From: Kappaphycus alvarezii
Taxonomy: Eukaryota; Rhodophyta; Florideophyceae; Gigartinales; Solieriaceae
Length of the DNA stretch: 64,000 bases
NCBI GenBank assembly: GCA_002205965.3
Contig: NADL03000091.1
Coordinates: 248,001 to 312,000 of the forward strand
Direction: 5' to 3'
Part shown: positions 3,075 to 64,000 of the stretch, in pieces
How positions within the stretch are numbered: position 1 is the first letter of the stretch
Layout: each line of letters opens with the position of its first letter
The notes under the pieces: generated by a model
Told to the model about the DNA's origin: nothing
Seen by the model: the letters and a program-made list of their open reading frames with translations, nothing else
Databases searched by the model: none
Position numbers and translations under genes: made by a program

Positions 3075-4303
3075 CAATCAAGTGCTCCTAGGCCTTCAAG
3101 TGGCTCGAGCGCAAGACAGAAGGAACTAGTCTCCTCGCGTGGATGGCGCGGCGGGAATGGCGACCCCGTATGACATGAGCCAGTATCGGATATGAGCAAC
3201 TTTCCAAACGCTACAAGGCCCGTAACAGTGAGAACGGAGGGCAGGCCACTTGGCGGCCGAAGGTAACGCCTGGCCATGTGCCACTAGAACCCAATCCCCA
3301 CGTTGAACATGTGAGGCTCTGTAGAGGTTGAAATACCCATTTATGCATCTGTTCTTCTCGACGCTGAGCTCGAAGGGCAGAGGAGGACAGAAGTTCCAGC
3401 TTGCGATGTGTATCGGCAGCGCAGTCCATCAACGCAATGGGTCAGATGGACTCATGCGCGTAACTACTCCGAACATCAGTTCGAACGGCGGAGCTCCAGT
3501 AGAAAGGCGACGACGTCGGTATCCGTACAAGACCCGGGGCAAACACTCTCCCAATCTATACTTTGGCCGACAACCATCTTCTTCACGGCTGTCTTGAGGG
3601 TTCTTACCATCCTTTCGGCTCTACCATTAGATATGGGAGCATACGCGAGAACAGTGGTCCAGTTAATTCCATGCTTCTTCATGAAATCAGCGACGTTCGC
3701 AGCTGTGAAGCACCAAACGTTGTCGCTGATAATGGTCTTCGGGGACCAAAAGGGTGCATAACTTCACTCTCGATGAACTGGGAGACGATTGCAGCCGAAG
3801 ATTCTGTGGTGGCAACTGCGATTGGCCAACCTGTCAAATGCTCGACGGCGATAAGCAGATACTTCTTTCCGGTGTTTGATATCGGCAGAGGTCCCGCGAA
3901 ATCGATCGAATAAGTTTCGAAGATATTCGTCACTGGGATATTCAAAGTCGAACGGTACGGCGGAAGGAGCCTCGTCTTCCGGCACACCTCACAACTTTTC
4001 ACGTAGTTGGTCTATGACAAATTTCTTCGTCTTCTCCTTATCCCAATGTCCGATGTCGTCGTGAAAGGTCTTCAATATCGCCACCCTGTCCTTCATAAAC
4101 GGTACAGACTTCAGCCCGTTTCTGGTTCGTCTAAGAAGCTTTCCTTCCCACATCACGAAATTTTTAGCCATACACTTGACCGAACGACGTTTCTCTTCGT
4201 CGTCAACTCGGATCTTCAAACCTTGCAAATGTCGTGCGACCTCAAGGAGGAAAGGTTTGATTAGGGGATTCTCTTCGGTAGCGGCAGAATCCAGCGCCGC
4301 CAC
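3075..4303 (-). pseudogene. gypsy-1 integrase
   Basis: This is the C-terminal part of pol, broken by frameshifts. An H2C2 zinc finger is spread over two frames: HDDIGHWDKEKTKKF near 4060 and CEVC near 3995. The catalytic core follows: SIDFAGPL (first Asp) near 3910, then SDN in a shifted frame near 3730 and SNGRAERMV (Glu) near 3620. After the core a GDWVLVAHGQALP-like segment near 3220 resembles the post-core region of gypsy-4a, so the two elements are related. The reading fades near 3075. The enzyme would insert element cDNA into the chromosome in the nucleus; this copy cannot make it intact. Confidence 0.85.
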
Positions 4304-5700
4304 TAAGTCTCCTTCATCAGGTCCAGAGGCAGGGACGGCCCGGCAGGTACCACATGCGAGAGGAAATTAGCTGCTCCGTTTCCCGCACCTGGCCTGTATT
4401 GGACCTCGGATTCATACTCCGCAAGGAAGAAGTCCATCCATCGCGCCAGCCTTCCGTGAATGTCGTTTTTCTTGAAGGCATAACAAAGGGCTTGATGGTC
4501 TGTAATGAGCTTGAAGGGCTCCGTCGATAACAGATACACCCTGAATTTCCTTAAAGCGACAATAACGGCGAGGGCCTCCCTCTCGCAGGCGGAATAGTTA
4601 CGCTCTGCTGAGTTCATCGTCCGGCTTGCGTACTGCACGGGATGAATCTTGCCATCTTTCCTTTTCTGGGCCAGGACTGCCCCAACGGCGACATTAGAAG
4701 CGTCGGTTTCCACGATGAATGGTGACTCGAAGTCCGGAAAGGCTAGCACCGGCGGAGAAGTAAGCTTCTCCCTAAGTGTTTCCAAGGCGGCAGTCATCTC
4801 CTCAGTCCATTCGAACTTCCTATTACCCGAAGTTGCTGCGTGAAGGGCAGAGGATATTCCGGCAAAGTCCTTAATGAAGCGACGATAATAACCGGCGAGG
4901 CCAAGAAAGCTACGCAACTCCGTTGAGTTGGTAGAAACGGGGGCCCTTTTGATGGCACCAATCTTGTCGTCGTCGACGCGGACTCCACGCTTGTCTACGA
5001 AGTGACCAAGCAGCTTTACGCTTGGCATAGCAAACGCGCATTTTGTAATCTTAAGTTTAAGTCCTGCGTCCCGACTGCCTTGAAAACGACAAACAAGTGA
5101 TCACCATCCTCTCCATAGAGTCGGAGAAGATCACGACATCATCAAGATGGACACGGGCGAAGGGAATTTCCTTCAGTACATAATCCATCATGCGCTGAAA
5201 TGTGGACGGCGCGTTCATGAGACCAAATTGCATCACCTCGAACTTCAAGGTACCAAAACGACTGACGAAGTGGTCATCTCCTTAAACTCTTCGGCCATGC
5301 GGATTTGCCAGTACCCCGCAAACAAATCAAGGGTGGTGAATATGGAGCTACCCTTTAGGTCGTCGAAGATCTCTTCTATCTTAGGTACTGGCCAACTATC
5401 CGACTTCATCTTGCGGTTCAGAGTGCGATAATCCACACAGAAACGAGGACTACTGTCCTTTTCGTCACGATAACCACTGGGAACGACCACGCCGACGACG
5501 CTGGGGTGATGATCCCAGTAGCTAACAATTTTGTCGGTTTCTCGACGGGCGATTTCGTTGTGTCGAGGCGACATTCGGCGAGCCCTGTGATAGATCGGGG
5601 TAGGGTCCTATTTCGAAGGAATGCTTCGTCAGCACGGCCGCAGGACGTAGCTCGTCTATAGTCCAGGCGACGATTCCCGTGTCGCGAACAAACCATTTAT
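4303..5700 (-). pseudogene. gypsy-1 reverse transcriptase and RNase H
   Basis: Frames 5245-5574, 5057-5248 and 4303-5028 together cover the polymerase and RNase H. Visible marks are FCVDYRTLNRKM near 5440 (finger/palm), FTTLDLFAGYWQIRM near 5330 (first catalytic Asp), FGLMNAPSTFQRMMDYV near 5200, and VHLDDVVIFS near 5140, which is the YxDD box with histidine-leucine in the variable positions. The connection domain FLGLAGYYRRFIKDFAG lies near 4880 and RNase H shows VETDASNVAVGAVLAQ near 4700, YSACEREALAVI near 4590 and ITDHQAL near 4495. Two or three frameshifts separate the parts. It would copy element RNA into DNA in cytoplasmic particles. Confidence 0.93.
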
Positions 5701-16396: not shown

Positions 16397-16469
16397 CACC
16401 TCCCGCGGGGCTCGAACCCGCGACCAACAGATTAAGAGTCTGTCGCTCTACCGACTGAGCTAGGGAGGC
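16397..16469 (-). tRNA. tRNA-Lys (anticodon CTT)
   Basis: 73 nt with no encoded CCA. The acceptor arm pairs GCCTCCC with GGGAGGT (one G-U), discriminator G. The D arm is AGCTCAGTCGGTAGAGC, the anticodon loop CTCTTAA on a 5-bp ACAGA/TCTGT stem, and the T arm GCGGG-TTCGAGC-CCCGC. There is no intron. The internal A box (TAGCTCAGTCGG) and B box (GGTTCGAGCCC) are intact, so RNA polymerase III transcription is expected. A LINE begins just upstream of its 5' end. Confidence 0.97.
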
Positions 16470-16696
16470 CGATCTCACTTGTCACTGATAAATGTTGCAA
16501 CTAGTATTTAAAGTAATACTACGATAACACGTGGCTACCCGTTCGCCCGCCTGCCCCGACCTCCTCCACGTTGGATTCGCCCCGTCTCCTACGTCCGCCT
16601 TCCATCCTTCGACACAGCCCACCGCCAGCTCTGCTTGGCCGCCGCCTTGCCAAGACCAACCTGCCCCCTTCGTCCTAGTCCCGCTCGTTCGGGAAA

Positions 16697-17483
16697 TTGT
16701 TCTACCTATATTTTCCCGCCCCGGCCCGCCCTGACGTTTTCAACGTCCTCGCTCACCTCCGTCTGACGTACCCGGACCTGTACGTTTCGCCTCTCACGCT
16801 CACGCAACACTGCGCCACGGTGGATATCTCTGCCGCCCACGGTGTGGCCACCCGCCTCCAACGTGAAGCGGCTCGCCTGGTGAGCCCCAAACTGCGTTCG
16901 TGGGTTGCCCCTCACGTCCGCAACGCCATGGCGATAGCCCTCCGTCACGATGCCCGCCTCATTGCTGAGGCGCGCCGCCCGACCCGCGGGAATCCCGCCC
17001 GCACGCCCGCTCAAACACCGACCGAACATCCCGCCAAACCCACCGCCCCGGCCCCGACCAAAACCGTCGCGGCCTCACCCGGCCCCGCACAAGCCCCCAA
17101 ACGCCCCAACGGGGCACACCCTCCTCCCCCCTGCCGCTCCCCGCCCCGCCGCTGGACACACTCCGGACCTCACACTCCGCTCCCCGGGCTCTTCCCCGTC
17201 GGCGTCAAAACGCCGATGCCCCGCAACTGAAGAAGCCCAGGCATCGGAGTTCCTCATGGTGCCCAACGCAACACCGGCGCCCAGGGCCGCTCTCCCTCCC
17301 ACCGTCGCCTCCGCGGCAACGATGGGTAACGAGTCCGCACCGGTCGTTTCCATGAAGCCAATGATGGCTGCCGTACAAGGTGCGCAGGGCCCAACCATCA
17401 GTCAACAGGCCAGTCGGCCTAACTCCGCTCCTCCCCACCATGGATTCGGTCCACCCCATGGAATCGGACCCCACGCCGCATGA
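16697..17483 (+). pseudogene. LINE-A N-terminal region
   Basis: Two overlapping frames (16697-17230 and 16950-17483) cover a region whose first half looks globular (HGVATRLQREAARLVSPKL near 16850) and whose second half is a long Pro/Ala/Thr-rich linker. No zinc finger or Myb motif of the R2 kind is visible. It probably led into the RT frame that starts by 17380; one or two frameshifts separate them. Confidence 0.6.
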
Positions 17484-20292
17484 TACATCGGCGTCATTCC
17501 CCTTGCCCACTCCCCTGGAAATCCTCTCAACACCCTACCGCGACAGGGATATCTTCCAAGATATTCCCGCCCCCTGCCTCTCGCAATTTATCCTCCTGTT
17601 TATCAAGTTGGTGAAAGCTGCGGCGAACGCTCGTGGGGAAGACGCCACTCAACGAGCATTCCTTCACCTCCACATGCTGCCCACGGCTGTCCTCCGTCGC
17701 TGTCTTCGAGGAGAGCGCGGATGGCGGGACCCCAAGAGCCAACGGATCGCCCTCCGAGAGCGCCTCCGTCGTGCGCACACGGGCTCACAGTGGGGAGCAC
17801 TATGGGCCGAAGCTCTCGCAGCACACCAAGCACGGCTTGAATGGTGGGAACGAAACACGCTGTATGCCCCAACGGTCCCCGGCGACATCGGGCGCGCCCG
17901 TCGTGCAGAGGCCCTTTGCGCTGATGCGCGATACGGTAAGGCCATGCGCGCCCTCCACAATGGCCCGCTCGCCGACGTCAACGACCCGGCGACGATTCAG
18001 CGGCTCAGGGATCTGCACCCGACCCCGCCGCGCCCTGTCTCGCCGCTCCCGGAAGGACGACTCCCGCCGCCCCCGTGCATCACTGAGGCCGCTGTGGAAC
18101 ACGCGGTCCGCGGCGTCCCGCGGGACACCACCGCCGGACCCGAACGAACGCCGTCCCGCTGGTTCCACCTCTTGGTTAAGACTCGCGTCAGTCCTGAGGC
18201 CGGCGTGACTGGTCTGCGTGTCCTGACACAGCTCGTTTCCCGGCTCGCACGGGGGAACTCCCGGACGCTGTGCTTCCCCTCGTGGCAGCGGCGACGCTCC
18301 TCCCGCTGCAGCCGACTCCCGACAAGGTCCGCCCGATCGCCATCGGGTCTGTGCTTCGCAGGATAGTGACGAAGGCACTGCTCCCCGCCGCAATAGCCGA
18401 TTCACACTCGGTTCTGTCGCCGCATCAGACGGCCAATGGTGTTAAAGCCGGGTTGGACTCTATTGTCCACGACACCCGCACGACACTACGCCGCTTCTCC
18501 GCCACCCCGAACGTCGCCACGGTCCTCATAGACGCAACAACGCCTTTAACCGCGTTGATCGGCAGTCTATGCTGGACCACCTACCAATGCTCGCCCCCTC
18601 GCTAGCCCGCTTCGCAAACATGATCTATGGCCGAATGCAACCGCCATTGCTTGTCCCGAACCGGGATCGCACCGTCATACCAAGTGCCCAGGGCACCCAA
18701 CAGGGTGACCCGGCCAGCATGTTGTTGTTCTCGCTAACGATTCAACCCCTCATCCGTCGGGTTGCTGAGATCCCCAACATTGCTCTCTGCCAATGGTACG
18801 CCGATGACGGCACGATCGTCGGGAACCTTGGCGCCATCCGTCAGGCGCTCCGGCTCCTTGCCCGAGATGGTCCCACGGTTGGGTTCCACGTCAACCAACG
18901 GAAGACACGCATACATTGGCCTCACGTCATGCCGCCGGATCGAGCAGCCCTCTTAGCGGAATTCCCTCTCGCGAATGCTCGCGGGACGGCTTTCCGCTTC
19001 TAGGGGCCCCCATTGGGAACAAAACGTTCACGGAGAGTTTTCTCCGGTCTAAGATTGCTCAGTGCCGCCGTACCCTGGACCGCCTCCTGCTGGTCCGCGA
19101 CGCCCGCGCCCGGTTCCACATGCACCGGATCTGTGCCTCTGCATGCCTCCTATCGCATGCATTCAAGCTCTCAGATCCGCGCTTAGCAGAGTCCGCCGCT
19201 GAAGAATTTGATGATCTACAACGGTCATCATATGAAAAGTTACACGGCATAGCTCTCACGGACCGAGCCTGGGACCAAGTGTGCCTCCCCATGCACCTCG
19301 GAGGCCAGGGCTTCGAAAGCATCGCCTCGTGCCTCCACGGCGCTGCCGCCGCCAGCATCATTGATGCTGCGCCCGCACGGCAGCGAACTTCCGCATACGC
19401 CACGCCGCGTGCTTGTGCACTAGCTTCTGGCCGCTACCGCGGCGACCGGTCCTTCCTCCTCCGTCAGGCTGGGCCTTCTCTCCGCCGTTTCGCCCTCTCC
19501 ATCCCCGGAATAGTCGACCTTTCCACCCTTGACCCTCCAACTCTAGCTGCTTCACCCACCAACACACTAACCCTTCTCAAACGGGTGCAGCAAGAGGCGC
19601 GGGCAAGAGTACATTGGCACGACGACTCCTGGGAGAATGCCCCAAACCCGACCGCCCATAGCGACGCCGACATTCGACATCGCATCCGTGGCCTAGCGTT
19701 CCGCCGCAGCCCCGCTGCGGCGTTTCTCTTCGCTCATCCCACGGCAGCTACGAAGGTCCACACTACACACTGGCAGACCATGCTCCGCCGTCACCTCGGA
19801 CTGCCAGTGTATGATGACTCCATGGCCCTCAACTGCCACCACTGTGACCACCCCTTGGACACCCTCGGGGATCACGCCGCCGACCTCTGCTGCCCTGGTT
19901 TCGGCCGTCGTCACCGCCACAACTCGCTATGTAATGCGATTGCGACGCACGTTACCCGCGCCGCGGGTCTGGATACTCGGCAAGAGGTTCCGTTCCTCGT
20001 CCCGGGCACTGAGCTCCGCCCCGCCGATATCCTTGTACAACCACCACCAACCCCGGAAGGCACAACGTTGCGCCCCATTGCCTGTGACATCACCGTCGTT
20101 TCACCGTTCAAGGCCGCAGTTCGCACCAAGGCGACCCAGGTTGCCGGAGGCGCTGCTGAACTGGCGGCCCGCGACAAGGTTACAACCCTGGAACGCAACA
20201 TCGCCCGACGACTCCCGCTCCATCGACTGGCCCATCTTCTGCGCCTTACACGCCGAACTTCACGTTTCGACCTCTGGCGTTTGATTCCCTAG
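17380..20292 (+). pseudogene. LINE-A reverse transcriptase and REL endonuclease
   Basis: Frames 17380-18366, 18270-18605, 18569-19003 and 18916-20292 together read as one protein of about 950 residues. A pre-RT domain has QRAFLHLHMLPTAVLRRCLR near 17660. RT motifs are VRPIAIGSVLRRIV near 18330, AQGTQQGDPASMLL near 18700 and the catalytic box QWYADDGTIVG near 18800. After a long thumb and linker, a CHHC...GDHAADLC finger lies near 19840-19890. The endonuclease core follows: RRHRHNSL near 19910, RPADILV near 20025 and CDITVV near 20090, the PD-(D/E)xK pattern of REL LINEs. It would nick the target and prime reverse transcription from that nick. Confidence 0.93.
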
Positions 20293-20545
20293 GTGCCCCT
20301 TCCCCTGGAACTATTGCATTTATCGAGGAGTTAGTTCCGCGGATCGCGTCCAAGTGTCACTCGACAGTTGGCATTGTCCGCCGCCGTATCTACCAGCGAC
20401 TGAGTTGCACCCTGTGGTCCTCCATCGCCGAAGCTATCCTGTCCCGAGCACCGATGCGCACGGACGACGAAGTACATCCGGTTAGATCTTAACCGTATAG
20501 TTAGGACGTGCGCAGTCCACAGTAGATACTGAACGCATTAAACTT

Positions 20546-21403
20546 CCTCCTTAACGTGGCCATCATCACCGCCAAGACTCGCCCTGTTTTGCGTTTGCAG
20601 TACACGGCTGACACGGAGGTGTCCGCGGTGCACTGGAAAATAATGCTTCGCCGATATTTGGGACTGCCCGTTTATGATGACTCGCTTCCTCGGAACTGCG
20701 AGCATTGTAAACGCCAAACGGACATATTAGGCGATCACGCTGTAGACTTGTGCCCGTCTGGCTTTGGTCGCAAACACCGGCATAACTCACTGCGCAACGT
20801 CATCGCTGGTCGTATCGCCCGTGCCGCCGGCCTGGATTGCCAGCTCGAGGTCCCACTCCTCGTGCCCGGCACCGAGCTGCGACCCGCTGACATACTGGTT
20901 CACCCACCAGCAGCCCCGGAAGGCACTGTGGCCCGCCCGATCGCCTGCGACGTTACCATAGTCTCGCCATTCAAGGACGATGTCAGAACGAGAGCTACAA
21001 GGGAAGTGGGCGGTGCAGCTGCAATTGCACACCGCAACAAGGAGACGGACCTGGAGAGAAAATTGTCGCGTCGACTCCCCCCGCCCTCCGATAACCCCAC
21101 ACAGGCCCCCGATTTCGAATTTCAACCGCTGGCCTTTGATTCCTTGGGTTCCCCTTCCCCGAAACCGTCCGCTTCATAGAGGGACTGGTGCCTCGCATTG
21201 CTGACAAATTCCACACGTCGACAGGAGTTATCCGCAATCGGATTTATAGGCGCATTAGTAGCACAATCTGGTCGTCGAGCGCACAATCTATTGAATCGCG
21301 TATGTCGCTGCACGTGGCCGACGTGGACCACCCGGTTAGCACTTAGCTAGCAGTATAGTCGGATCCTGCAGCGGACACCCGTTCTACTGATGCCATAAAG
21401 TTA
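20546..21403 (+). mobile_element. 5'-truncated LINE family B, REL endonuclease part
   Basis: Frame 20556-21179 starts within the linker and keeps the C-x2-C...H...C finger (CEHCKRQTDILGDHAVDLC near 20700), RPADILV near 20885 and CDVTIV near 20950. It then continues in other frames to MSLHVADVDHPV near 21305. The 3' tail is GTATAGTCGGATCCTGCAGC, then ACACCCG, ending GATGCCATAAAGTTA at 21403. This terminus recurs many times in the window. It lies head-to-tail behind LINE-A. Confidence 0.88.
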
Positions 21404-22010
21404 TCACACGTTATACGCTTCGCGTGTCTGGATATTCGGTACGAGAATCCGCACCTCGTCCCGGGTACTGAGCTCCCCCCCCCGATAGTCTTGTACAGCG
21501 TCCCCCAATCGCGGGAGGCACACCCTTGCGCTCCATTGCGTGTGACATCACTGTCGTCTCGCCCTTCAAGGCCGCAGTTCGCACCAAGGCGACCCAGGTT
21601 GCCGGTGGCGCTGCTGAACTGGCGGCCGGCGACAAGGTTACAACTCTGGAACGCAACCTCGCCCGACGCCTCCCCGCTCCCTCAACTGACGCATCTTCTG
21701 CTCCAGGCACGCCAAATTTCACGTTTCGACCTCTGGCGTTGAATTCCCTGGGTGCCCCTTCCCCTGGTACCATTGCGTCTATCGAGGAGTTAGTTCCGCG
21801 GATCGCCTCAAAGTGTCACTCGACACCTGGTGTTATCCGCCGCCGTATCTACCAGCGACTGAGTTGCACCCTCTGGTCATCCAACGCTCCAGCTATTGTG
21901 TCTCGAGCCCCGATGCGCATGGACGACGAGATACATCCGGTTAGGGCTTGCCGTAAAGTTAGGACGCGTGCAGTACCCCATAGATACTGAATGCATTAAA
22001 CTTGTTGTAT
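21404..22010 (+). mobile_element. 5'-truncated LINE family A, C-terminal part
   Basis: It holds RSIACDITVVSPFKAAVRTK near 21550 and VAGGAAELAAGDKVTTLERN near 21620, almost identical to the full LINE-A copy, then RRRIYQRLSCTLWSS near 21850 and a family-A 3' tail (GATACTGAATGCATTAAACT near 21995). It is the third unit of the same head-to-tail stack. Confidence 0.88.
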
Positions 22011-43439: not shown

Positions 43440-43486
43440 GTTGCGGGAAGAACTTTACGGCATTAGTATAACGGGTGTCCGCTGCG
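43440..43486 (-). repeat. LINE family B tail upstream of tRNA-Ser
   Basis: GAACTTTACGGCATTAGTAT, AACGGGTGTCCGCTGCGGAC is the last about 45 bp of family B, in minus orientation. It ends 113 bp before the tRNA-Ser gene and points away from it. Confidence 0.88.
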
Positions 43487-43598: not shown

Positions 43599-43699
43599 GA
43601 TGATATGGCAGAGCGGTCTAATGCGTGTGACTGTAACTTTATGGCATCACTAGAAATCACATCCCCTCGCGGGCCCACGTTCGAATCCTGGTATCATCG
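43599..43699 (+). tRNA. tRNA-Ser (anticodon AGA) with a 19-bp insert in the anticodon arm
   Basis: The acceptor arm pairs GATGATA with TATCATC, discriminator G (as in eukaryotic tRNA-Ser). The D stem GCA/TGC is compensated, a long variable arm (CCCCTCGCGGG) is present, and the T arm CCACG-TTCGAAT-CCTGG has one mismatch. Removing 19 bp (TGTAACTTTATGGCATCAC, 43,632-43,650) restores stem TGTGA/TCACA with loop CTAGAAA, anticodon AGA. The insert lies 5' of the anticodon, at 32/33 or the equivalent 31/32, not at the canonical intron site 37/38. It shares 17 bp with LINE family B termini. A and B boxes remain, so transcription is plausible; whether the insert can be removed is unknown. Confidence 0.85.
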
Positions 43700-48650: not shown

Positions 48651-49850
48651 AACTTTACGGCGTGATTACTAAGGATCCAGTGCAGGACTAACTATTCTCC
48701 TAGCTGACCTGGTAAGAAATAACTTCATGGCATTTGGACGTTATCTGGAAAATTTTACAGAGGCCGAATACATCTTCCAACAGTAAAAGCATCCAATATA
48801 TTCCGCTGGCATTTGTGTGACGGGTGCCCACCGCAAGATCCGACTATATTGCTAGCTAAGAGCTAACCGGGTGGTACACGTCGCAATAAGTAGTTTATTT
48901 CGGCCATAGTGATAAACGCGCCACGTGCAGGGCCGTTAGGAATACACTAGATGGCTATTGGGAGGCAAACCCTGTGTGTTACGGGGCGAGACAAATTATC
49001 GAAGTGGCACATGTGGACGAAATCGGATGGCTTAATTTCTGGTACAGCGAAATATCACACTCCGGGGGAGCTGCCGCTACGCATCGCGATAATTGCAGCG
49101 TGCTTATCAATGATATTTGATGATGCATGAGATCAGGATCCCAGTGAATCGAACCCTAGGGACACAAATATCCAGCCTAGTCGTGAGCTTCCTAGGAGTG
49201 TCTCTCCGGTGACGGCTGCCACCTCCCTGGCCAGAGTCTATTATGGTTGTCTGGAAAACCATGGGATAGATCGGATATATCTTACAAGAGCGAAACACCC
49301 ATATCCTTCCACCTTTCCTTGCCAGGTCAGTCATTTTCCGTTTTTCTGCTGCTAGGGCTACCGCCGCCGCAGTCTCAGCTCCCACGCGACTAGTTTTCTT
49401 CTGGTTCACGTGGAATCAGACCCTATGGCATTAATATCAAGGGTCAGTGCAGGAACCGACTATTTGCTGGCTCAATGCTGACCCTGTGACCCAGCAATAC
49501 GCATTTATTTCTTTGATGGGTGGTTGTCAAACAAACCGAGTGGTCCAGGGAATCAAAGAAAAACTTTATGGTATTCCTATCTGGCTGTCCACTGCAAGAT
49601 CCGACTATATTTCGAACTTAGAACCACAGTCGGGAAGAACTTTCTGGTATTTTTGTAACGGGTGTCCACTGCAGGATCCGACTATGTTGCTAGCTCAGAG
49701 CTGACCAGTGGCCCACCTCGGCCACGTGCATCGACAGATAGATAAACTTTATGGCATCAGTATAGCGGGTGTCCGCTGCAGGATCAGAAAAGAAAATTTT
49801 ACTTTGCTGCATTAATATCGGGGGTCCAGCGCGGTAGTGCGAAGAATTTT
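48650..49850 (-). repeat. Cluster of short LINE tails
   Basis: At least nine tails, mostly minus-oriented: family C at 48,655-48,710, 49,420-49,480 and 49,793-49,850; family B at 48,820-48,880, 49,565-49,625, 49,635-49,735 and 49,745-49,790. LINE-2 tails in plus orientation lie at 48,745-48,795 and 49,235-49,310. None keeps more than a few codons. Family B pieces share CCGCTGCAGGATCCGACTAT next to AACTTTATGGCATCAGTATA. Confidence 0.85.
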
Positions 49851-49854
49851 AATG

Positions 49855-50223
49855 CATTCAGTATCTATTGGGGACTGCGCGGGTCCTATCTATACGGCTA
49901 AGACCTATCCGGATGTACTTCGTCGTCCGTGCGCATCGGTGCTTGCGACAGGATAGCTTCAGCGATGGAGGACCACAGGGTGCAACTCAGTCGCTGGTAG
50001 ATACGGCGGCGGACAACCCAGGTGTCGAGTGACACTTGGACGCGATCCGCGAAACTAACTCTTCGATAAATGCAATAGTTCCAGGGGAAGGAGCACCTAG
50101 GAATCAAACGCCAGAGGTCGGAACGTGGAGTTTGGCGTGTAAGGCGCAGAAGATGGGCCAGCTGGGGGAGCGGGGAGAGTAACTTTATGGCATCAGTAAA
50201 ACGGGTGTCCGCTGAGGCGTCGG
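49855..50223 (-). repeat. LINE family A 3' end, interrupted by a 36-bp LINE-B tail
   Basis: The minus strand encodes RRRIYQRLSCTLWSSIAEAI near 49,970 and the family A tail at 49,855. At 50,178-50,213 the LINE-A sequence is split: GAGCGGGGAG, then TAACTTTATGGCATCAGTAA and AACGGGTGTCCGCT, then GAGGCGTCGGG. Confidence 0.88.
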
Positions 50224-50632
50224 GTGTAAGAAGTTTAATGCGTTCAGTATCTACTGTGGACTGCGCACGTCCTAACTATACGGTTAAGATCTAACCGGAT
50301 GTACTTCGTCGTCCGTGCGCATCGGTGCTTGCGACAGGATAGCTTCGCGATGGAGGACCACAGGGTGCAACTCAGTCGCTGGTAGATACGGCGGCGGACA
50401 ACGCCAGGTGTCGAGTGACACTTGGACGCGATCCGCGGAACTAACTCCTCGATAAATGCAATAGTTCCAGGGGAAGGGCACCTAGGGAATCAAACTCCAG
50501 AGGTCGAAACGTGAAGTTCGGCGTGTAAGGCGCAGGAGATGTGATAATTTATGGCATCAGTACGGGCCAGTCGATGGAGCGGGGAGGCGTCGGGCGATGT
50601 TGCGCTCCAGGTTGTAACCTTGATGATGATAA
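50224..50632 (-). repeat. LINE family A 3' end, interrupted by a 22-bp LINE-B tail
   Basis: It is nearly identical to the preceding copy over the shared part. At 50,542-50,563 the sequence TGATAATTTATGGCATCAGT AC interrupts GGCGCAGGAGATG / GGCCAGTCGATGGAGC. A longer family B tail follows at 50,632-50,701. Confidence 0.88.
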
Positions 50633-50701
50633 CTTTATGGCATCAGTAGAACGGGTGTCCGCTGCAGGATCCGACTATACTGCTAGCTAAGTGCTAACCG
50701 G
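50632..50701 (-). repeat. LINE family B tail
   Basis: AACTTTATGGCATCAGTAGA, ACGGGTGTCCGCTGCAGGAT, CCGACTATACTGCTAGCTAA: the clearest copy of the family B terminus in minus orientation. Confidence 0.92.
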
Positions 50702-51745
50702 GTGGTCAGGGTGAAACTTTACTTCATTGAGTATCTATCGTGTACACTGCAGGACTGACTATACGGCTAAGAACTAATCGGATGTTCCACGTCAGGCACG
50801 TGCAGTGGGGCTCGCGATAGAATCGCCATTGCAATAGAAGACCACAAGTGCAACTAATGCGCTGATAAATACGTCTGCGGATCACTGCTGTGGTTGTGTT
50901 GAACTTCTCTGCGATGCGCGGGATGAAGTATTCGATGAACAGGATAGAGGCTGGGGATGGGGCACCCAAGGAGTCGAAAGACAGGGCTGAAACTTGAAGT
51001 TCGGTTCCTGGAGGGTGTTGTGCGAAGGGGGCGGGATGCGGCGTACCAGTTTGCGCTCCAGGTCTGTGACTTTGTCTCGGTGGGCAATGTCAGCGGCGCC
51101 GCCGGCCATTTGGGTGGCCCTTGTGCGCACACCTTGTTTGAACGGCGAGACAATGGTTAGGTCGCAGGCTATGGGGCGGACCTGTTGGCCAGTGGGCAGG
51201 GGGGGTATTGTATGAGAATGTCCGCAGGGCGGATATTCGTTCCCGGGACAAGGAGCGGGACTTCGTATTGGCAGTTCAGGCCCGCGGCGCGAGCAACGTG
51301 GTAGGCGAACACGTTGCCAGCGAATTGTGGCGGTGCGGGCGGCCGAAGCCGGCAGGGCAGAGTCAGCCGCGTGGTCCCCGAGTGCGTCCAAAGTTTGATT
51401 GCAGTGCACAGGTGAGCGGGCGGGAGTCGTCGTATACGGGGAGGCCTAGGTGCCGGCGGAGCATGGTCTGTCAGGGGGCGGAGGACCCACCGTAGCGGTT
51501 GTGGGGTGAGCGATGAGAAAAGCGGCGGCGGGGTTGTTCCGGAACGCCAGGCCACGAATCTGATGTCGAACTTCTGGAGTGCTGTGCTGAGCCGGGTTGG
51601 GGTGTGTCAACCATGAGTCGTCGCGCCAGTGGACATTTTCCTGTGCATCCTGCTGCACACCATTTAAGGTTTGGAGGTTGGATGGTTTGGCAGCAAGCAG
51701 GCATGGGTCAAAGGGGCCGAGGTCGACGGAGTACGGGGCCCAGGG
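50702..51745 (-). pseudogene. 5'-truncated REL-LINE, endonuclease part
   Basis: The minus strand reads HCNQTLDALGDHAADSALP near 51,400 (finger), GNEYPPCGHSHTIPP near 51,230 with a shifted RPADILI, RPIACDLTIVSPFKQGVRTR near 51,160 (catalytic Asp), AGGAADIAHRDKVTDLERKL near 51,090, and ends near 50,722 with a tail of family A type. Upstream (51,446-51,704) QQDAQENVHWRDDSWLTHPN matches LINE-A QQEARARVHWHDDSWENAPN. Confidence 0.9.
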
Positions 51746-55737: not shown

Positions 55738-56868
55738 TCACTGCTTCGGAGGATCCTCGCCGCCTTCAACGTTCCCAATTTGTGGCGGAGAAACGTAAGG
55801 TTCCCATAGAGGATACGGGACCAGCCTGTATTCCATATCCGGGGGTAAGGCGTAACCTCTCAGTCGCACATCTTGGTTGTTCTTGAGAAATACGTAAATT
55901 GGACGGATAATATTCAGATACGTTTGCGACAAGTCTCCAGCAGCTACCATTCCATATCTTCCTATAGAGTAATGATATATTACCTCCACAAACTCTGGAC
56001 CTGCTTCCGTGAACCTTCCGTTTTGGAATGAAAATAGAACTCTTATTAATAGTCGGAAATCTTCTTCAGGTAGCAATGGTCCGTTCAACGTACGAAAACA
56101 TAGGCATATATTAATGTAGAAATGGATGATTACGTGGAGTTCGTAGTAGTCCCGCGTAACCGAGATGATCCATTCCCAGGCCCTTTTTCCTCCCATAGGA
56201 ATCATTCTATAGTTAAAGATGAGTATGCCCCGTGGTTGCGCATAGTCCTGTGTGAGAAGGAATTCTTCAGGCCTCTGATGGTAAGGGACCAGACGACGTG
56301 CATGGATGGCCCTCCTTGATCTCTTCCCTGAGCTTGAACAGAGCTGATAGTGCGGGTGTCTTTCCTCCGTGACGATGCAAGGGTTCGAGTACTTGGTTTG
56401 GAAGGCCGGCCACTTCACAGCCTGCTGCATTGCTTTTCCATGTACTACAAGTACTTTAGAGCCAACTGAAAAGGTTCTGACTGCAGGTTCTGCATCCTTA
56501 TTTCTTGTCTGTGTTAGCGCGCGGTGTGATCTCCAGCCTTCGGTGGCCAGTAGTTCAACTTCCCTACTCTCTTCATCGATAATATTTGTTTCCATGTCTC
56601 TCTGTAACATTCTAGGAGCCCTTCCGTACATTAGCTCGAATGGTGAGCGTCCATTTCTTCCTCTTCTTCGACGATAGCCGTATAACACTTTTGGTAAGGC
56701 ATCTTCCCACTGGATTTCATTCTCCGACATAGTTTTCGATATTGCTCGTTTGATGGTTCCAACCATCCTCTCCGCTTTCCCGTTGGACATAGGAGCGTAT
56801 GCGAGAACGGTCTTCAGCTGAATCCTTTCTCTTCCAAAAAACGAAGCAGTGAAGTTGCAGTAAAACAA
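55738..56868 (-). CDS. gypsy-4a integrase C-terminal half with accessory domain
   Basis: This 376-residue frame starts inside the integrase core: AYAPMSNGKAERMVGTIKRA holds the catalytic Glu near residue 30. PFELMYGRAPRMLQRDMETN (about 85-105) and FSVGSKVLVVHGKAMQQAVK (about 138-158) are the usual post-core segments, ending HARRLVPYHQRPEEFL near residue 205. After that, about 160 residues have no place in a normal integrase: WEWIISVTRDYYELHVIIHF, FVEVIYHYSIGRYGMVAAGD, LSQTYLNIIRPIYVFLKNNQ and YRLVPYPLWEPYVSPPQIG. This segment is helical and aromatic, not a chromodomain. It is repeated just downstream. It may act as a separate protein or as an integrase tether. Confidence 0.85.
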   Translation of the reverse strand: MFYCNFTASFFGRERIQLKTVLAYAPMSNGKAERMVGTIKRAISKTMSENEIQWEDALPKVLYGYRRRRGRNGRSPFELMYGRAPRMLQRDMETNIIDEESREVELLATEGWRSHRALTQTRNKDAEPAVRTFSVGSKVLVVHGKAMQQAVKWPAFQTKYSNPCIVTEERHPHYQLCSSSGKRSRRAIHARRLVPYHQRPEEFLLTQDYAQPRGILIFNYRMIPMGGKRAWEWIISVTRDYYELHVIIHFYINICLCFRTLNGPLLPEEDFRLLIRVLFSFQNGRFTEAGPEFVEVIYHYSIGRYGMVAAGDLSQTYLNIIRPIYVFLKNNQDVRLRGYALPPDMEYRLVPYPLWEPYVSPPQIGNVEGGEDPPKQ

Positions 56869-57689
56869 AGGGCGTTATCCGAGATGATCCTTTTTGGAAG
56901 ACCAAACGGTTCAATTATTTCTTTTTCGATGAATCTCAGTACCACCTCAGCATTTGCCTCCTCAACTGCAACTGCTATTGGCCATCCAGTAAGATGTTCC
57001 ACCCCTATAAGGAGATATTTGTTTCCGGAAGAAGTTTCCTTGAACGGGCCCGCGAAGTCAATTGAGAAGGTTTCAAAGAGACCGGAAACTGGAAAACTTA
57101 GAGTTGTCTTATACTTCCGTATTGGAGTGAATTTTTGGCAGTTGTCGCAGCTTTTCACGAAATTATAGACGTCCTTATGGATACCGGGCCACCAGAATCT
57201 CTCAGTTACGAATTTTTTGGTTGTTTCGAGATCCCAATGCCCTAGCTCATCATGGAAAGTCCTCAAGATCTTCATTCTTTCTTTCAAAGGGGCCACTAGT
57301 CGGGGACCGGCTTTAGTGTGCCGGAAGAGTTTCCCATTCCACAATGTAAAAGCCTTTTGATTCCTGCGTACCCAATTTCTGTGTTCAAGATCAACCTTTC
57401 TCATTTCTAGTCCATCGAGGAATTTGATCAGTCCGTGAATATTAGCTTCGTACTCGTTATCGTTCGGCAACTGCAACTCGGCGACTCCGACGATGTCCTC
57501 CGAAGCTTTTTCATTTGGAATCAGTGCGTCCCTCAAGCGGGATAGGTAATCGGCAGGCTGATTATTGCGTCCGGGTCTATACACAATTTCAAACCGATAT
57601 TCTGCGAAAATGTCGAGCCATCGGGCCAAGCGGTGATGTACATCCTTCTTTTGGAATGCTGTTTTAAGTGCCTGGTGATCAGTTATCAA
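56814..57689 (-). CDS. gypsy-4a RNase H end and integrase N-terminal half
   Basis: From ITDHQALKTAFQKKDVHHRL (RNase H end), through YRPGRNNQPADYLSRLRDAL, to the integrase finger: HDELGHWDLETTKKFVTERF and CDNCQKFT (H2C2) near 57,180-57,250. The core follows: FETFSIDFAGPFKETSSGNK (first Asp) near 57,070 and PKRIISDNALCFTATSLLRF (second Asp) near 56,880. A frameshift near 56,825, in an A-run, separates it from the Glu-bearing frame. Confidence 0.92.
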   Translation of the reverse strand: MITDHQALKTAFQKKDVHHRLARWLDIFAEYRFEIVYRPGRNNQPADYLSRLRDALIPNEKASEDIVGVAELQLPNDNEYEANIHGLIKFLDGLEMRKVDLEHRNWVRRNQKAFTLWNGKLFRHTKAGPRLVAPLKERMKILRTFHDELGHWDLETTKKFVTERFWWPGIHKDVYNFVKSCDNCQKFTPIRKYKTTLSFPVSGLFETFSIDFAGPFKETSSGNKYLLIGVEHLTGWPIAVAVEEANAEVVLRFIEKEIIEPFGLPKRIISDNALCFTATSLLRFLEEKGFS

Positions 57690-57748
57690 GACAAATTTCT
57701 CGAGTGATAAAAGGTATACGCGAAACTTTTTCAGCGCGAAGACGACAG

Positions 57749-59192
57749 CTAGCGCTTCTTTCTCGCAGACTGAGTATCTCTTTCCGCATCATTCAGAGTT
57801 CGGCTTGCGAATTGAACAGGGTGTAGTCTTCCGTTTTCATCTTTTTGGGACAAAACGGCACCCAAAGACCGTTCTGAGGCATCTGTCTCCACAACGAATG
57901 GTCTCTTGAAATCTGGGTACATGAGAACTGGGGGGACACATAGCTTATCTTTAAGCTCCTGAAATGCAGTTTCCATTTCCTTGTTCCAGTAAAATTTTCC
58001 GTTCTTCGTAGTGCTGGCATGTAACGGTGCTGCAGTCTTGGCGAAATCTTTGATAAATCTTCTGTAATATGAGGCCAGTCCTAAGAAGCTTCGGACCTCC
58101 GTCTTTGAAGCGGGCCTTGGTGCCAACTTTATTTTTTTCGTTTTCTCTGGATCCACTCTAATTCCCTCTTGGTCGACGATGACCGAGTAATTGGATAGAA
58201 GTTTTCGCAAAGAAGCATTTGCTCAACTTAATTTTCAAGCTATACTCCGATATCCTCTCCACAACTGTCTTGACGTGCGAGATGTGCTGATCCAATGTTT
58301 CTGAGAATATGACGACATCATCGATATAGACTCTTGCGAATGGAAGTCCTTTCAAAACCTCGTTCATCATTCTTTGGAATGTAGCTGGTGCATTCATGAG
58401 ACCAAAAGGCATCACTTCGAACCTGAACGTACCGGCTTTGCTGGTAAAGGTTGTTTTTTCCTTACATTTTTCATCCAATGGAATCTGCCAATAGCCAGTG
58501 TAAAGGTCAATTGAGGTGAAATATCTCCCGTCCTTCAGGTCCTCGAGGATCTCCTCCATGTTCGGAATCGGAAATCGATCGGGTATCATTCTCTGGTTCA
58601 GTTGTCGGTAATCGACGCAAAAACGCAGCTTTCCATCCTTCTTTGGTGCGACCACAACTGGAAACGACCATGGGGATGAAACTGGTCGAATAATATCATT
58701 TTTCAGCATACTTGTAACATTTTCTGAGATAAATTGGTCATATTTTGGCGGTTGACGTCTAGGCTTGTGGTAAATCGGTTGAGTGTCGGTAAGTTCGAAC
58801 GAGTGAGTAACCGGTACACTTGCTTGTCTTAAATCTGAAACGCTCCATGCAATTACTTCGGAAGATGTTAACATGTCGGATATTTTCAGTGAGGCGGGGG
58901 CGGGAAGGTGCTGCACTTTTCCTTGGATTTCTGCCATTTGGCGCCCTTTTTCTTCTTGATCCTCAACCTCAATATTTTGAAGGACCTCTTCCGTCGTGCT
59001 CACATCTTCATATATGGAATTCGACGTATTCTTATTTTCTTTGCAAAGGTAATCTTCTTTCATGCTCCGAATTCTGTCCTTTGATTCGATATCATCGCAA
59101 AAAGAAACACATTCGGGTTTCAAACTTATCCTAGAATCCCAGTCGTCATCTGTTTCAAACCCGGAATCATAATCGTCCCATGCCATGTTCAT
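57749..59192 (-). CDS. gypsy-4a reverse transcriptase and RNase H
   Basis: Frame 58,158-59,192 (344 residues) begins with an acidic leader and contains KKDGKLRFCVDYRQLNQRMI near 58,620, YFTSIDLYTGYWQIPLDEKC near 58,510 (first Asp), FGLMNAPATFQRMMNEVLKG near 58,390 and RVYIDDVVIFSETLDQH near 58,320 (YIDD box). Frame 57,749-58,210 continues with EVRSFLGLASYYRRFIKDFA and RPFVVETDASERSLGAVLSQ (RNase H). A frameshift near 58,175 lies in the LLGH...D motif, and a 1-bp loss in a T-run near 57,783 breaks RNase H. Confidence 0.95.
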
Positions 59193-61075
59193 TACCCCCG
59201 AGGGTACCCTTTTCCACTTCCGAAAGTGTTAGTTGGTTCCGAATCTTCGCTGTCATAGCTAGAAGTGAAATCTTCACTGTCCGTTTCTTTTAAATCTTCA
59301 GGATGCGTGCTTTTGTCGAAATCCAGGGGCATCTTCACGGTTCTGCCGTCAATATTAACTGAAACCATTTGGTTGCCCAAGTCAATGCATGTTCCTAGTC
59401 TTTCCATTGTGGGGCAGCCAATGATTGCATCGAAAGGGAGATCCGGCATGACAAGAAAGTCTACATCAACTTTAGAGTCCCCAAAGAACACGGAAACCTT
59501 GTCAACAGTGCCCATGCATTTTGAGACGGTTCCATCCGCTACAGTTATTTTTCGAGTCGTTGGAGTAATTTCGAGACCTAGATCTGTCACCAAAGTTTCT
59601 GAAATGAGGTTTGGAACAGCACCCGAATCGAAGAGAGCTTGGGTTTTCATACCCAATACTTTGACTGGTACCAGCTTAAGACGTCTTGGTGCTGTCGAGG
59701 CCGATTGAAGAAACAGTTTCTTACCCTTAGCGGACTTATTAGACCTGATAATTTTTTTGAGTTCTTTTCTCGCATCCTCTGCGTCGCCCCTCAAAAGTTG
59801 ACCAAACGTTATCCCAGTTGGGGCCGATGCAAGCTCAGCCACCAAATTGTACCTCTTCACATACTCTAGTACGTCCTTAGAGATACTCTTAACTTTCTTA
59901 CTCTTTTTCGTCTTCTTGGCCGGAGTGACTCCCACTCCTGGAACAACTTGATCAGACCTCTTGGTTCGAGGAGGTACAGGTGCTGGGATATGCTCCAGCA
60001 TTCCATACTCTAGCCTAGGTTTCTTCGATAAAATGTTCCCTTCCCCATCCCTTTTTGTCACATTGACTTGACTAATCTCTTCAGCGATGGATACGTTACC
60101 GGCATCCGTCAACCTTTGATCCCTTCTATTTTGTAAGATTTTCACCTCTGGTCCTGACTCACTCCTTGCTTCCGATAAATTTGCTCTTCTGTTGTCTTTA
60201 GACCAGCAGTTACTTTCATGATGCCCATATCGACCGCACTTTGCACAACGAGTGTTTCTATGTGGATTATCAGGACACCTGTTTGCAAAGTGTCCAGGCT
60301 TGTGACAGTAAGAACAGACTTCTGCGGCCTTAGGGGCCCCAGACTGGTTCTTCTTAATGGTAAGAGTAAGGCTTTCCAACTGCGAGGTTATCATGTCAAG
60401 TCGATTATCGAATCGGGTTTCCAACCTTTCTTCCAAGTTTTTGACATCGCTCCTGACAGATTCTAATGCCGCTGCACTAGTAGCCGGCCTTTGATAATTC
60501 TTTTCAGGATGTACGATAGACATCGATGTGCGGGTTTCCCTCGGTACCTCACTCAGTGACTGAAACGTCTCCGAATTTTTGACAAATTCTACTATGGTAC
60601 CCTTCAGTTCATCAAAAGTGTGAGGGCCCTTGATGAGGAGGAAATCGGAGAGCCGCTTATCCCCCATAGCCGCCTTACGCAGCATTCCGTACTTGGCTTG
60701 GGCGTTGAACCCAGCCTTTTCATAAAGATCACACAAGTACACCAATGAGCTTAACAAATCGTCGAAGTTGAGCCGGGCCTCTATGGCGGTACGAATCATC
60801 TCATCTGGTTCTACCTCCTTAGCATACTCTTTCACAAGCCACTCACATACCTCACCGAAGTTACGCCCATTCCCGTTAAGAGACCACCCGTCGATAAACT
60901 TGGACTTATATTTGTGCTTTGCGTCACCATGAAGATAGGCGAAGATACTTGCGGCCTTCTCTTCATCGCCCTTCTCTCACGCATCACAACGTTGACATAT
61001 GTGTAAAGAAACTCCTCAACGTCTTCAGTCTTGCCCCTGTGAACGTTATACGAGCAGCGTTGAGATCCATGATTA
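59192..61075 (-). CDS. gypsy-4a Gag and protease
   Basis: The long frame 59,192-60,835 continues upstream without an ATG to about 60,980, and in shifted frames to about 61,075, where MDLNAARITFTGARLKTL opens. The capsid has LCDLYEKAGFNAQAKYGMLR near 60,700. Two zinc knuckles follow: CSYCHKPGHFANRC (C-x2-C-x4-H-x4-C) and CAKCGRYGHHESNC near 60,200-60,330. A long basic linker leads to the protease: QALFDSGAVPNLISETLVTD near 59,620 (DSGA) and FDAIIGCPTMERLGTC near 59,420. Gag and protease are in one frame; pol follows one nucleotide off, suggesting frameshifting or reinitiation. Confidence 0.93.
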
Positions 61076-62345: not shown

Positions 62346-63207
62346 AAATCATGGGGCCTTTGAAACGAATAGGGATGCAGTTGCTTTCCTATAAAAATAT
62401 TCCAAAAAGTAGGTGCGCGTTTGATAGTTCCAATCATCTTTTCGGCTTTCCCGTTTGACATAAGTGCGTAGTCGAGAACTGTCTTCAGCTGAATTCCTTT
62501 CTCCTTCAAAACTCGAAGCAGTGAAGTTGCAGTAAAACAAAGGGCGTTATCCGAGATTATCCTTTTCGGAAGACCAAACGGTTCAATTGTTTTTTTCGAT
62601 GAATCTCAGGACCACTTCAGCATTGGTATACTCACCTGCAACTGCTATTGGCCATCCGATTAGATGTTTCGCGCCGCTATGAGGAGATATTTGTTTCCGG
62701 AACATGTTTCCTTGAACGGGCCCGTGAAGTCAATTGAGAAGGTTTCAAAGAGACCGGAAACTGGAAAACTTAGAGTGTCTTATACTTCCGTATTGGAGTG
62801 AATTTTTGGCAGTTGTCGCAGCTTTTCACGAAATCATAGACGTCCTTATGGATACCGGGCCACCAGAATCTCTCAGTTACGAATTTTTTGGTTGTTTCGA
62901 GATCCCAATGCCCTAGCTCATCATGGAAAGTCCTCAAGATCTTCATTCTTTCTTTCAAAGGGGCCACTAGTCGGGGACCGGCTTTAGTGTGCCGGAAGAG
63001 TTTCCCATTCCACAATGTAAAAGCCTTTTGATTCCTGCGTACCCAATTTCTGTGTTCAAGATCAACCTTTCTCATTTCTAGTCCATCGAGGAATTTGATC
63101 AGTCCGTGAATATTAGCTTCGTACTCGTTATCGTTCGGCAACTGCAACTCGGCGACTCCGACGATGTCCTCCGAAGCTTTTTCATTTGGAATCAGTGCGT
63201 CCCTCAA
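62346..63207 (-). pseudogene. gypsy-4b integrase, internally deleted
   Basis: The zinc finger frame (62,770-63,207) is open and equals that of gypsy-4a (HDELGHWDLETTKKF, CDNCQKFT). The core is broken near 62,620-62,700 by indels, and after GKAEKMIGTIKRA (62,420) the reading passes into accessory-domain sequence. Confidence 0.88.
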
Positions 63208-64000
63208 GCGGGATAGGTAATCGCAGGCTGATTATTGCGTCCGGGTCTATACACAATTTCAAACCGATATTCTGCGAAAATGTCGAGCCATCGGGCCAAG
63301 CGGTGATGTACATCCTTCTTTTGGAATGCTGTTTTAAGTGCCTGGTGATCAGTTATCAAGACAAATTTCTCGAGTGATAAAAGGTATACGCGAAACTTTT
63401 TCAGCGCGAAGACGACAGCTAGCGCTTCTTTCTCGCAGACTGAGTATCTCTTTTCCGCATCATTCAGAGTTCGGCTTGCGAATTGAACAGGGTGTAGTCT
63501 TCCGTTTTCATCTTTTTGGGACAAAACGGCACCCAAAGACCGTTCTGAGGCATCTGTCTCCACAACGAATGGTCTCTTGAAATCTGGGTACATGAGAACT
63601 GGGGGGACACATAGCTTATCTTTAAGCTCCTGAAATGCAGTTTCCATTTCCTTGTTCCAGTAAAATTTTCCGTTCTTCGTAGTGCTGGCATGTAACGGTG
63701 CTGCAGTCTTGGCGAAATCTTTGATAAATCTTCTGTAATATGAGGCCAGTCCTAAGAAGCTTCGGACCTCCGTCTTTGAAGCGGGCCTTGGTGCCAACTT
63801 GATTTTTTTCATTTTTTTCGTTTTCTCTGGATCCACTCTAATTCCTCTTGGTCGACGATATGACCGAGTAATTGGATAGAAGTTTTCGCAAAGAAGCATT
63901 TGCTCAACTTAATTTCAAGCTATGATATCCTCTCCACAACTGTCTGACGTGAGATGTGCTGATCCAATGTTTTGAGAATATGACGACATCATCGATATAG
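63204..64000 (-). pseudogene. gypsy-4b RT end and RNase H
   Basis: The frame 63,204-63,899 holds EVRSFLGLASYYRRFIKDFA, VVETDASERSLGAVLSQKDE, YSVCEKEALAVVFALKKFRV and ITDHQALKTAF, with RNase H intact where gypsy-4a has a 1-bp loss. A frameshift near 63,860 lies close to the place of the one in gypsy-4a but is a different change. The RT box is beyond the frame break near 63,980. Confidence 0.9.

Follow-up and report, generated by a model that had tools for sequence, protein, structure and literature searches.

The interrupted tRNA-Ser(AGA) gene

The window, the whole stretch of 64,000 nucleotides that was analysed, contains a tRNA-Ser(AGA) gene of which the anticodon arm is interrupted by 19 bp (Table 1). 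The Rfam tRNA model recognizes 43,599–43,699 with a score of 40.0 bits (E = 5.8e-5). The arm reads TGTGA-CT-GTAACTTTATGGCATCA-CT-AGA-AA-TCACA, such that the extra 19 bp consist of 17 bp identical to the 3' end of a LINE and a 2 bp duplication (CT). In the preliminary description the gene was folded as a type II tRNA-Ser with discriminator G once these 19 bp were taken out. Without them, its length and layout are those of ten further tRNA-Ser(AGA) genes of 81–82 nt. Elsewhere in the window, decayed LINEs span 16,536 to 21,404 on the + strand, directly upstream of a tRNA-Lys gene.

Table 1. Features of the window discussed in the text
Feature	Position	Strand	Basis
tRNA-Ser(AGA) gene with 19 bp insert (type II, G73); probable pseudogene	43599..43699	+	Rfam tRNA model and paralogue comparison
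17 bp stub of LINE-B 3' end, GTAACTTTATGGCATCA on +	43633..43649	- (LINE sense)	17/17 bases match
Left CT of 2 bp target-site duplication; ACT if the terminal A is assigned to both sides	43631..43632	.	Ten paralogues found lack the insert
Right CT; anticodon AGA then at 43652-43654	43650..43651	.	Paralogue alignment
T-stem base C, G in 10/10 paralogues; C-C mismatch	43678..43678	+	Alignment and Rfam model
Alternative reading as a 19 nt intron at the canonical site (after position 37); anticodon then GTA, at 43633-43635	43637..43655	+	ARAGORN; pairing check
Older LINE-B 3'-end remnant at -148 to -114 of tRNA-Ser, same orientation	43451..43485	-	BLAST/sequence comparison
tRNA-Lys(CTT), LINEs directly upstream	16397..16469	-	tRNA calls
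LINE-A, ~4.0 kb, decayed frames; RT, CCHC, restriction-like endonuclease; head-to-head with tRNA-Lys	16536..20553	+	Domain and profile searches
GCCACGT, tRNA-proximal target-site duplication of LINE-A; overlaps CACGTG box at -64 of tRNA-Lys	16529..16535	-	Sequence
GCCACGT, distal target-site duplication of LINE-A	20554..20560	-	Sequence
3' part of LINE-B1 with a separate endonuclease-domain frame; ends ...TGATGCCATAAAGTTAT at 21,404 beside ACGTGTG	20561..21404	+	Domain comparison
LINE-A and LINE-B pieces, nested; contain the exact 17-mer (50,179-50,195)	49638..50707	-	Sequence matches

Paralogues and history of the locus

A DNA search of the genome with the tRNA-Ser gene gave 11 places, namely the gene itself and ten others, and all were scored. 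Aligning the tRNA-Ser(AGA) genes of this genome, a check proposed in the preliminary description, shows the insert to be unique to one of the 11 found. It is absent from the others (0/10), all ten of which read CTAGAAA between TGTGA and TCACA. The insert is therefore private to one copy among those found, and the empty site can be placed with single-base precision. The insert is seen in the assembled sequence, where an error at this site is conceivable.

Three of the paralogues (L013, L014 and L019) have flanks in common with the window. With gapped positions set aside, L013 is identical to the tRNA-Ser locus at 114/139 aligned positions in the upstream 150 bp, 31/31 in the 5' half of the gene, 47/51 in the 3' half and 52/58 in the 60 bp downstream. 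The simplest reading of these alignments is that the tRNA-Ser locus is an old duplicate and that the insertion postdates the duplication. An allelic copy was looked for and rejected: among the 40 of 4464 candidates that were scored, none exceeds 92% identity besides the locus itself and one 66 bp piece at 94%, and only diverged duplicates of the locus, on C494, C492 and C548, are seen, with no second allele.

The pair of tRNA-Lys and tRNA-Ser genes (16397–43699) recurs in inverted form on C494 and C492, with a spacing of 37 kb there and 27 kb in the window. Judged by their sequence, these copies with their diverged flanks appear to be a duplicated or homeologous segment.

Match of the insert to the LINE 3' end

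The 17-mer of the insert has an exact second copy at 50,179–50,195, and three more sites in the window match it with one or two mismatches. With up to two mismatches allowed, the window thus holds five matches versus a mean of 0.01 in 100 shuffled windows, and a chance match, already judged unlikely in the preliminary description, is rejected. Genome-wide, the exact 17-mer is present in 340 + 351 = 691 copies (336,021,096 bp, 884 contigs), while its reversed control pattern gives 0 + 0 in the same sequence. Given the 691 copies, the 17-mer came from the LINE, and the tRNA gene was its target. The insert starts at the point where LINE copies begin to diverge on their left side, which is the LINE 3' terminus.

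As a sample of LINE-B ends, we took those exact matches that come first in contig order (71 of 691), which are 71 distinct copies in 68 loci. As the sample was picked by the exact 17-mer, a 17 bp match is given by construction, shorter copies are invisible and it is the flanks that carry information. On the left, the copies diverge immediately or after a short, often GA-rich tail, and several left flanks are themselves other LINE copies. On the right, most of the 71 copies continue as G-TA[A/G/T]AACGGGTGTCCGCTGC... for highly variable lengths. The base that follows the 17-mer in the tRNA-Ser gene is C rather than the G of most sampled copies, and this counts against reading the insert as a LINE stub.

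The LINE match extends over 17–25 bp in 20/71 sampled ends, 26–30 bp in 4, 31–40 bp in 5, 41–60 bp in 12, 61–90 bp in 6 and more than 90 bp in 24, such that 24 of the 71 match the LINE for 30 bp or less. For the 41 copies of at most 60 bp, the target-site-duplication-like matches have a mean of 3.34 versus 2.35 in shuffled pairs, a value of 3.34 being reached in 0/500 shuffles; several single short copies show no duplication longer than 2 bp. Individual examples are an 18 bp stub within a LINE-A copy (L107, duplication GGACTG), a 21 bp stub (L051, ACATAGT) and a 28 bp stub with an 11 bp duplication that lies, however, in an ACAGT-rich stretch (L061). Ultra-short LINE stubs are a real class in this genome, and the tRNA insert fits its lower end.

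Two LINE-B copies ~9 kb apart (L100 and L101 near base 1001, C25) have a common left flank and truncation point and are probably a local duplication.

The LINEs and their protein domains

The C-termini of LINE-A and LINE-B in the window, which hold the endonuclease domain, are 65% identical. In BLAST, LINE matches in L010 and L035 end one base short of the tRNA-proximal duplication of LINE-A. A frame of 497 amino acids in L049, from a close relative of the window LINE, matches RVT_1 (E = 1e-11). Compared with the PDB, its RT scores similarly against L1 ORF2 (E = 1.5e-5) and the R2 proteins 8gh6, 9nl3 and 9dou (E = 2.8e-5 to 4.3e-5). No Pfam family was matched by the LINE C-terminus. A profile built from five C-termini (LINE-A, LINE-B and three relatives) does match R2 proteins, with E values of 4.6e-8 (9nl2), 1.6e-6 (9nl3), 2e-6 (9dou) and 9.8e-4 (8gh6). 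The alignments to 9nl2 and 9nl3 span a CxxC...H...C stretch, an RHN motif and then a D...D stretch, which we take to be the motif pattern of the restriction-like-endonuclease (RLE) class, and we classified the C-terminus on this basis. The AlphaFold model of the C-terminus is poor (pLDDT 53.9) and too weak to use; the top four Foldseek hits obtained with it are R2 proteins, at E = 0.064 or worse, none of them significant. In this LINE group an RT is followed by a CCHC motif and a restriction-like endonuclease, and the group appears to be of the RLE type and R2-like, as judged by the C-terminal profile.

LINE pieces upstream of tRNA genes

The surroundings of tRNA genes were examined in 41 tRNA-centred loci of 3 kb, 30 taken from a tRNA family search and 11 from the tRNA-Ser search. 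With 63 of the 11601 family-search candidates scored, the set is no census and is biased to high-scoring tRNAs. Two multi-tRNA loci (L034 and L036) were omitted before BLAST and eight were set aside as bacterial or organellar, a judgement from length and type, leaving 31 nuclear-type loci. As L039 supplied the query, it is excluded from the LINE match counts, which therefore refer to 30 loci.

BLAST with the window LINE finds matches in the upstream 1.5 kb of 22/30 tRNA loci and downstream in 2/30 (L016 and L047). The upstream pieces are arranged head-to-head only in 20 of the 22 loci, with one mixed (L011) and one opposite (L043). Their nearest edges lie at -60 to -70 in eight loci, at -103 to -121 in six and at -152 to -462 in eight, and some of these edges (L011, L015, L040 and L041) are possibly stretched by the CACGTG that LINE and host have in common. 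The pairs L013/L014, L029/L030, L037/L038 and L040/L041 look like duplicated segments, which brings the number of independent events below 22. The exact 17-mer occurs five times upstream of the 31 nuclear-type tRNA genes (46,491 bp), in one orientation (four at tRNA-Ser and one at tRNA-Lys genes) and with 0.096 expected at genome density; downstream it occurs 0 times in 46,483 bp.

Seen from the side of the LINE, ARAGORN finds a tRNA in only 2/68 of the loci that were fetched for LINE-B ends (71 copies, 2–3 kb each). In both of these, L007 and L107, the LINE end is upstream of the tRNA and head-to-head with it. The preference for the region upstream of tRNA genes is strong in the loci examined and is not exclusive, most LINE-B ends lying elsewhere.

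Three tRNA-Arg(cct) loci differ in this respect, one having no LINE upstream (L047) and two having one (L048 and L049). In L048 the LINE side joins L047-like sequence at GTGATACGTGTAATAAA, which makes a near empty/filled pair. At L015:1242-1432, two 5'-truncated LINE-B copies of ~95 bp stand in tandem, the nearer of which ends at CACGTG, 68 bp upstream of a tRNA-Ser gene.

The CACGTG box at the junctions

One or two CACGTG boxes are found at -110 to -45 in 13/31 nuclear-type tRNA loci, and none in the matching downstream interval (0/31). In the window, such a box lies at 16528–16533. Some of these upstream boxes may be derived from the LINE. A TATA-like box is present at -60 to 0 in 15/31 loci; together, the CACGTG and TATA-like boxes are possibly upstream Pol III elements of the host.

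LINE-B ends with at most two mismatches were classed over all fetched loci and the window (101 ends). Those of the GTAGAA type (14 copies) follow GTG[G/A]T in nine cases and have ACGTG or CACGT within 20 bp in six. The corresponding numbers are two and three for the 46 ends of the GTAAAA type, and one and zero for the remaining 41. The LINE also carries GGCCACGTG near its own 3' end, so that each insertion may itself supply a further target. In the tRNA-Ser gene, the anticodon arm ahead of the insert reads GCGTGTGACT, and CGTGTGA likewise precedes the LINE end at 21,404. The genome contains two exact copies of CGTGTGATAACTTTATGGCATCA and 14 copies that differ from it at a single position. Judging from this one site, the tRNA-Ser gene may have been hit owing to its likeness to the CACGTG box.

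Fate of the interrupted gene

The score of 40.0 bits is the lowest of the 11 genes with the Rfam model, the other ten reaching 52.8–59.4 bits. The change at 43,678 in the interrupted copy is the only T-stem change among the eleven. The variable arm differs from the commonest type, as it does in 6/10 paralogues, and single changes in the acceptor stem or D-loop occur in three of the ten (L017, L018 and L019), so that a gene cannot be taken for dead on the strength of small changes alone. The best predicted fold (-23.1 kcal/mol) departs from the cloverleaf, and shuffled sequences fold just as well (z = 0.29); a hand-drawn cloverleaf with a 26 nt loop gives -13.9 kcal/mol, or -16.5 kcal/mol when imposed as a constraint.

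A T-run downstream and most promoter bases are retained, which makes transcription possible. To that extent the view that the A and B boxes are kept stands, yet position 43,678, presumably the first B-box base, has C for G. In view of the insert, the C-C mismatch of the T-stem and the lowest score, in one disrupted copy among ten intact genes, the interrupted copy is probably a pseudogene. The preliminary description regarded a dead pseudogene among intact paralogues as evidence against its proposal; one disrupted, lowest-scoring copy beside ten intact ones is indeed what we find, but this argues against function and not against a LINE origin.

Origin of the insert

We consider it probable that the 19 bp are an ultra-short, 5'-truncated LINE-B insertion made by target-primed reverse transcription in a redundant gene copy, which probably yields no working tRNA-Ser. 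The LINE endonuclease would have made a nick in the anticodon-loop DNA of the tRNA-Ser(AGA) gene, the 3' end of the LINE-B RNA would have been copied onto the nick for 17 bases only, and the end of the cDNA would have been rejoined to the target, giving a duplication of 2 bp (CT) or 3 bp (ACT). For a LINE group that is over-represented upstream of tRNA genes, falling inside such a gene would be a case of mis-targeting. We infer this mechanism, the mis-targeting and the loss of function from the features of the locus. The extremely truncated LINE envisaged in the preliminary description is supported by the empty sites in 10/10 paralogues, the abundance of the LINE end and the presence elsewhere of equally short stubs with target-site duplications at the group level.

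The duplication at the insert is only CT (2 bp) or ACT (3 bp), too short to prove target priming at this gene, and LINE-templated break repair would look alike. End joining could have closed a break in the tRNA gene with 17 bases of filler DNA copied from LINE DNA or LINE RNA, the LINE endonuclease playing no part. The short duplication fits this, as does a TAGAA microhomology at the right junction between LINE-B1 (CAGTAGAA) and the target (CTAGAA). Such an origin is rather unlikely, the insert beginning exactly at the LINE 3' terminus, which would be rare for filler drawn from anywhere in a ~4 kb LINE. That the sequence travelled the other way, the LINE end being derived from a tRNA-Ser intron, is suggested only by the long common sequence (17 bp) and is largely refuted, to the point of having next to no chance: ten other tRNA-Ser(AGA) genes are without the 17-mer, the LINE end is present 691 times and the 71 sampled LINE ends sit outside tRNA-Ser genes.

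The insert can also be read as an intron. According to PMC4090602, the eukaryotic splicing endonuclease gauges its distance from the body of the tRNA, so that cleavage after position 37 and before position 38 is the natural guess if the RNA is cut at all. Excision of 43637–43655 would leave a serine tRNA body with anticodon GUA, which would place serine at tyrosine codons. ARAGORN, with introns allowed, calls exactly this, a tRNA-Tyr(gta) with intron (37,19), so that the site is ambiguous and the earlier statement that the insert is not at the canonical position does not hold without qualification. By the pairing rules for the anticodon–intron pair and the central helix, C32:G(-3) is possible and three of four central-helix pairs form. 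In position (37/38), in its length of 19 nt, which is within the 6–133 nt range given in PMC4090602, and in the possible C32:G(-3) pair, the insert resembles canonical eukaryotic tRNA introns as described there, the pairing applying to the GTA reading only. Unlike them, it occurs in a single gene among the 11 recovered, being absent from 10/10 paralogues, and it alters the anticodon. The T-stem mismatch, the lowest tRNA score of the 11 and the cost of the cloverleaf with its 26 nt loop relative to the best fold speak against a functional canonical intron, and a serine tRNA with GUA should harm the cell; we regard this reading as quite improbable. It is very improbable that the locus shows a tRNA intron at birth, the 17 nt LINE stub having given a canonical 37/38 intron in one step and turned tRNA-Ser(AGA) into a serine tRNA with GUA. 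Excision of the 19 bp at 31/32 to 33/34 as a non-canonical intron would restore tRNA-Ser(AGA). When four registers were tried with the BHB geometry, none was convincing, and only 31/32 gave 4/4 central-helix pairs, using bases of the anticodon stem. The red alga Cyanidioschyzon merolae is reported to have non-canonical tRNA introns, and such introns are spliced in an algal nucleomorph (PMC4090602). The present genome has light-harvesting protein matches (22 matches to PF00504), which suggest an alga, but tRNA contigs of bacterial type occur in the assembly as well. On the other side, the same source supposes that genes with short insertions in the D- or T-arm, in one of many synonymous genes, are pseudogenes, a logic that applies equally here. 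A non-canonical intron is hardly credible, and for the idea put forward earlier that such an intron has an origin in common with the LINE end there is no support, no such intron being needed.

Comparison with known systems

The dictyostelid LINEs TRE5, NLTR-A and NLTR-B target regions upstream of tRNA genes (PMC5911963, PMC5006619): TRE5 of Dictyostelium lies 40–54 bp upstream and NLTR-B of Polysphondylium 39–64 bp upstream, and the table of PMC5911963 assigns them to the L1 clade. NLTR-A and NLTR-B could not be placed in PMC5006619, which reports an RNase H domain. The present LINEs resemble TRE5 and NLTR-B in lying upstream of tRNA genes in a preferred orientation. They differ from both in the position of their edges, with clusters at -60/-70 and -103/-121 and greater distances in eight loci, and in an endonuclease C-terminus that the profile shows to be R2-like. 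Some edges lie at CACGTG, in a genome with light-harvesting matches, which also sets them apart.

As LINEs of or near the RLE type that insert at tRNA genes, NeSL-1_TV, LIN15_SM and LIN25_SM are comparable with the present group. NeSL-1_TV is an element of Trichomonas. Related to the NeSL clade, these elements are each reported to be specific for one tRNA gene, namely tRNA-Pro (NeSL-1_TV) and, in planaria, tRNA-Arg (LIN15_SM) and tRNA-Glu (LIN25_SM) (PMC4640811). In contrast, the present pieces are mostly upstream of tRNA genes or elsewhere, with one stub inside a gene. The likeness to R2 (9nl2, 9nl3, 9dou and 8gh6) extends to the RT and to the C-terminal CCHC and endonuclease region (best E = 4.6e-8). 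R2 targets 28S rDNA (PMC4640811), which sets it apart from the present LINEs, and their RT scores no better against R2 than against L1 ORF2. The group seems to form an RLE-type lineage concentrated upstream of tRNA genes, and its host genome has light-harvesting matches. The tRNA-associated non-LTR elements taken for comparison from the table of PMC5911963 are from dictyostelids only, and the combination of R2-like endonuclease, upstream placement, CACGTG, ultra-short stubs and an anticodon-loop stub was not found in the open-licence literature searched.

How eukaryotic tRNA genes gain introns is a question asked in PMC4090602, where a reverse-transcribed intermediate is named as a possibility. 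At the tRNA-Ser gene, for which the empty sites are known, reverse transcription most likely put an intron-sized piece into anticodon-loop DNA. It would represent the first step of a path to intron gain, and nothing here shows the second; if the path is real, repeated LINE-stub events would explain intron gain in eukaryotic tRNA genes.

Other elements in the window and assembly

The window also contains pieces of LTR-type retrotransposons (56814–60976, 63204–63908 and 4303–5100) with RT, RNase H, integrase or aspartic protease domains. In the assembly, the tRNA-Ile/Ala and tRNA-Thr/Gly/Tyr/Thr clusters in L020, L034 and L036 (C581 and C556) look bacterial or organellar, and non-nuclear contigs thus seem to be included.
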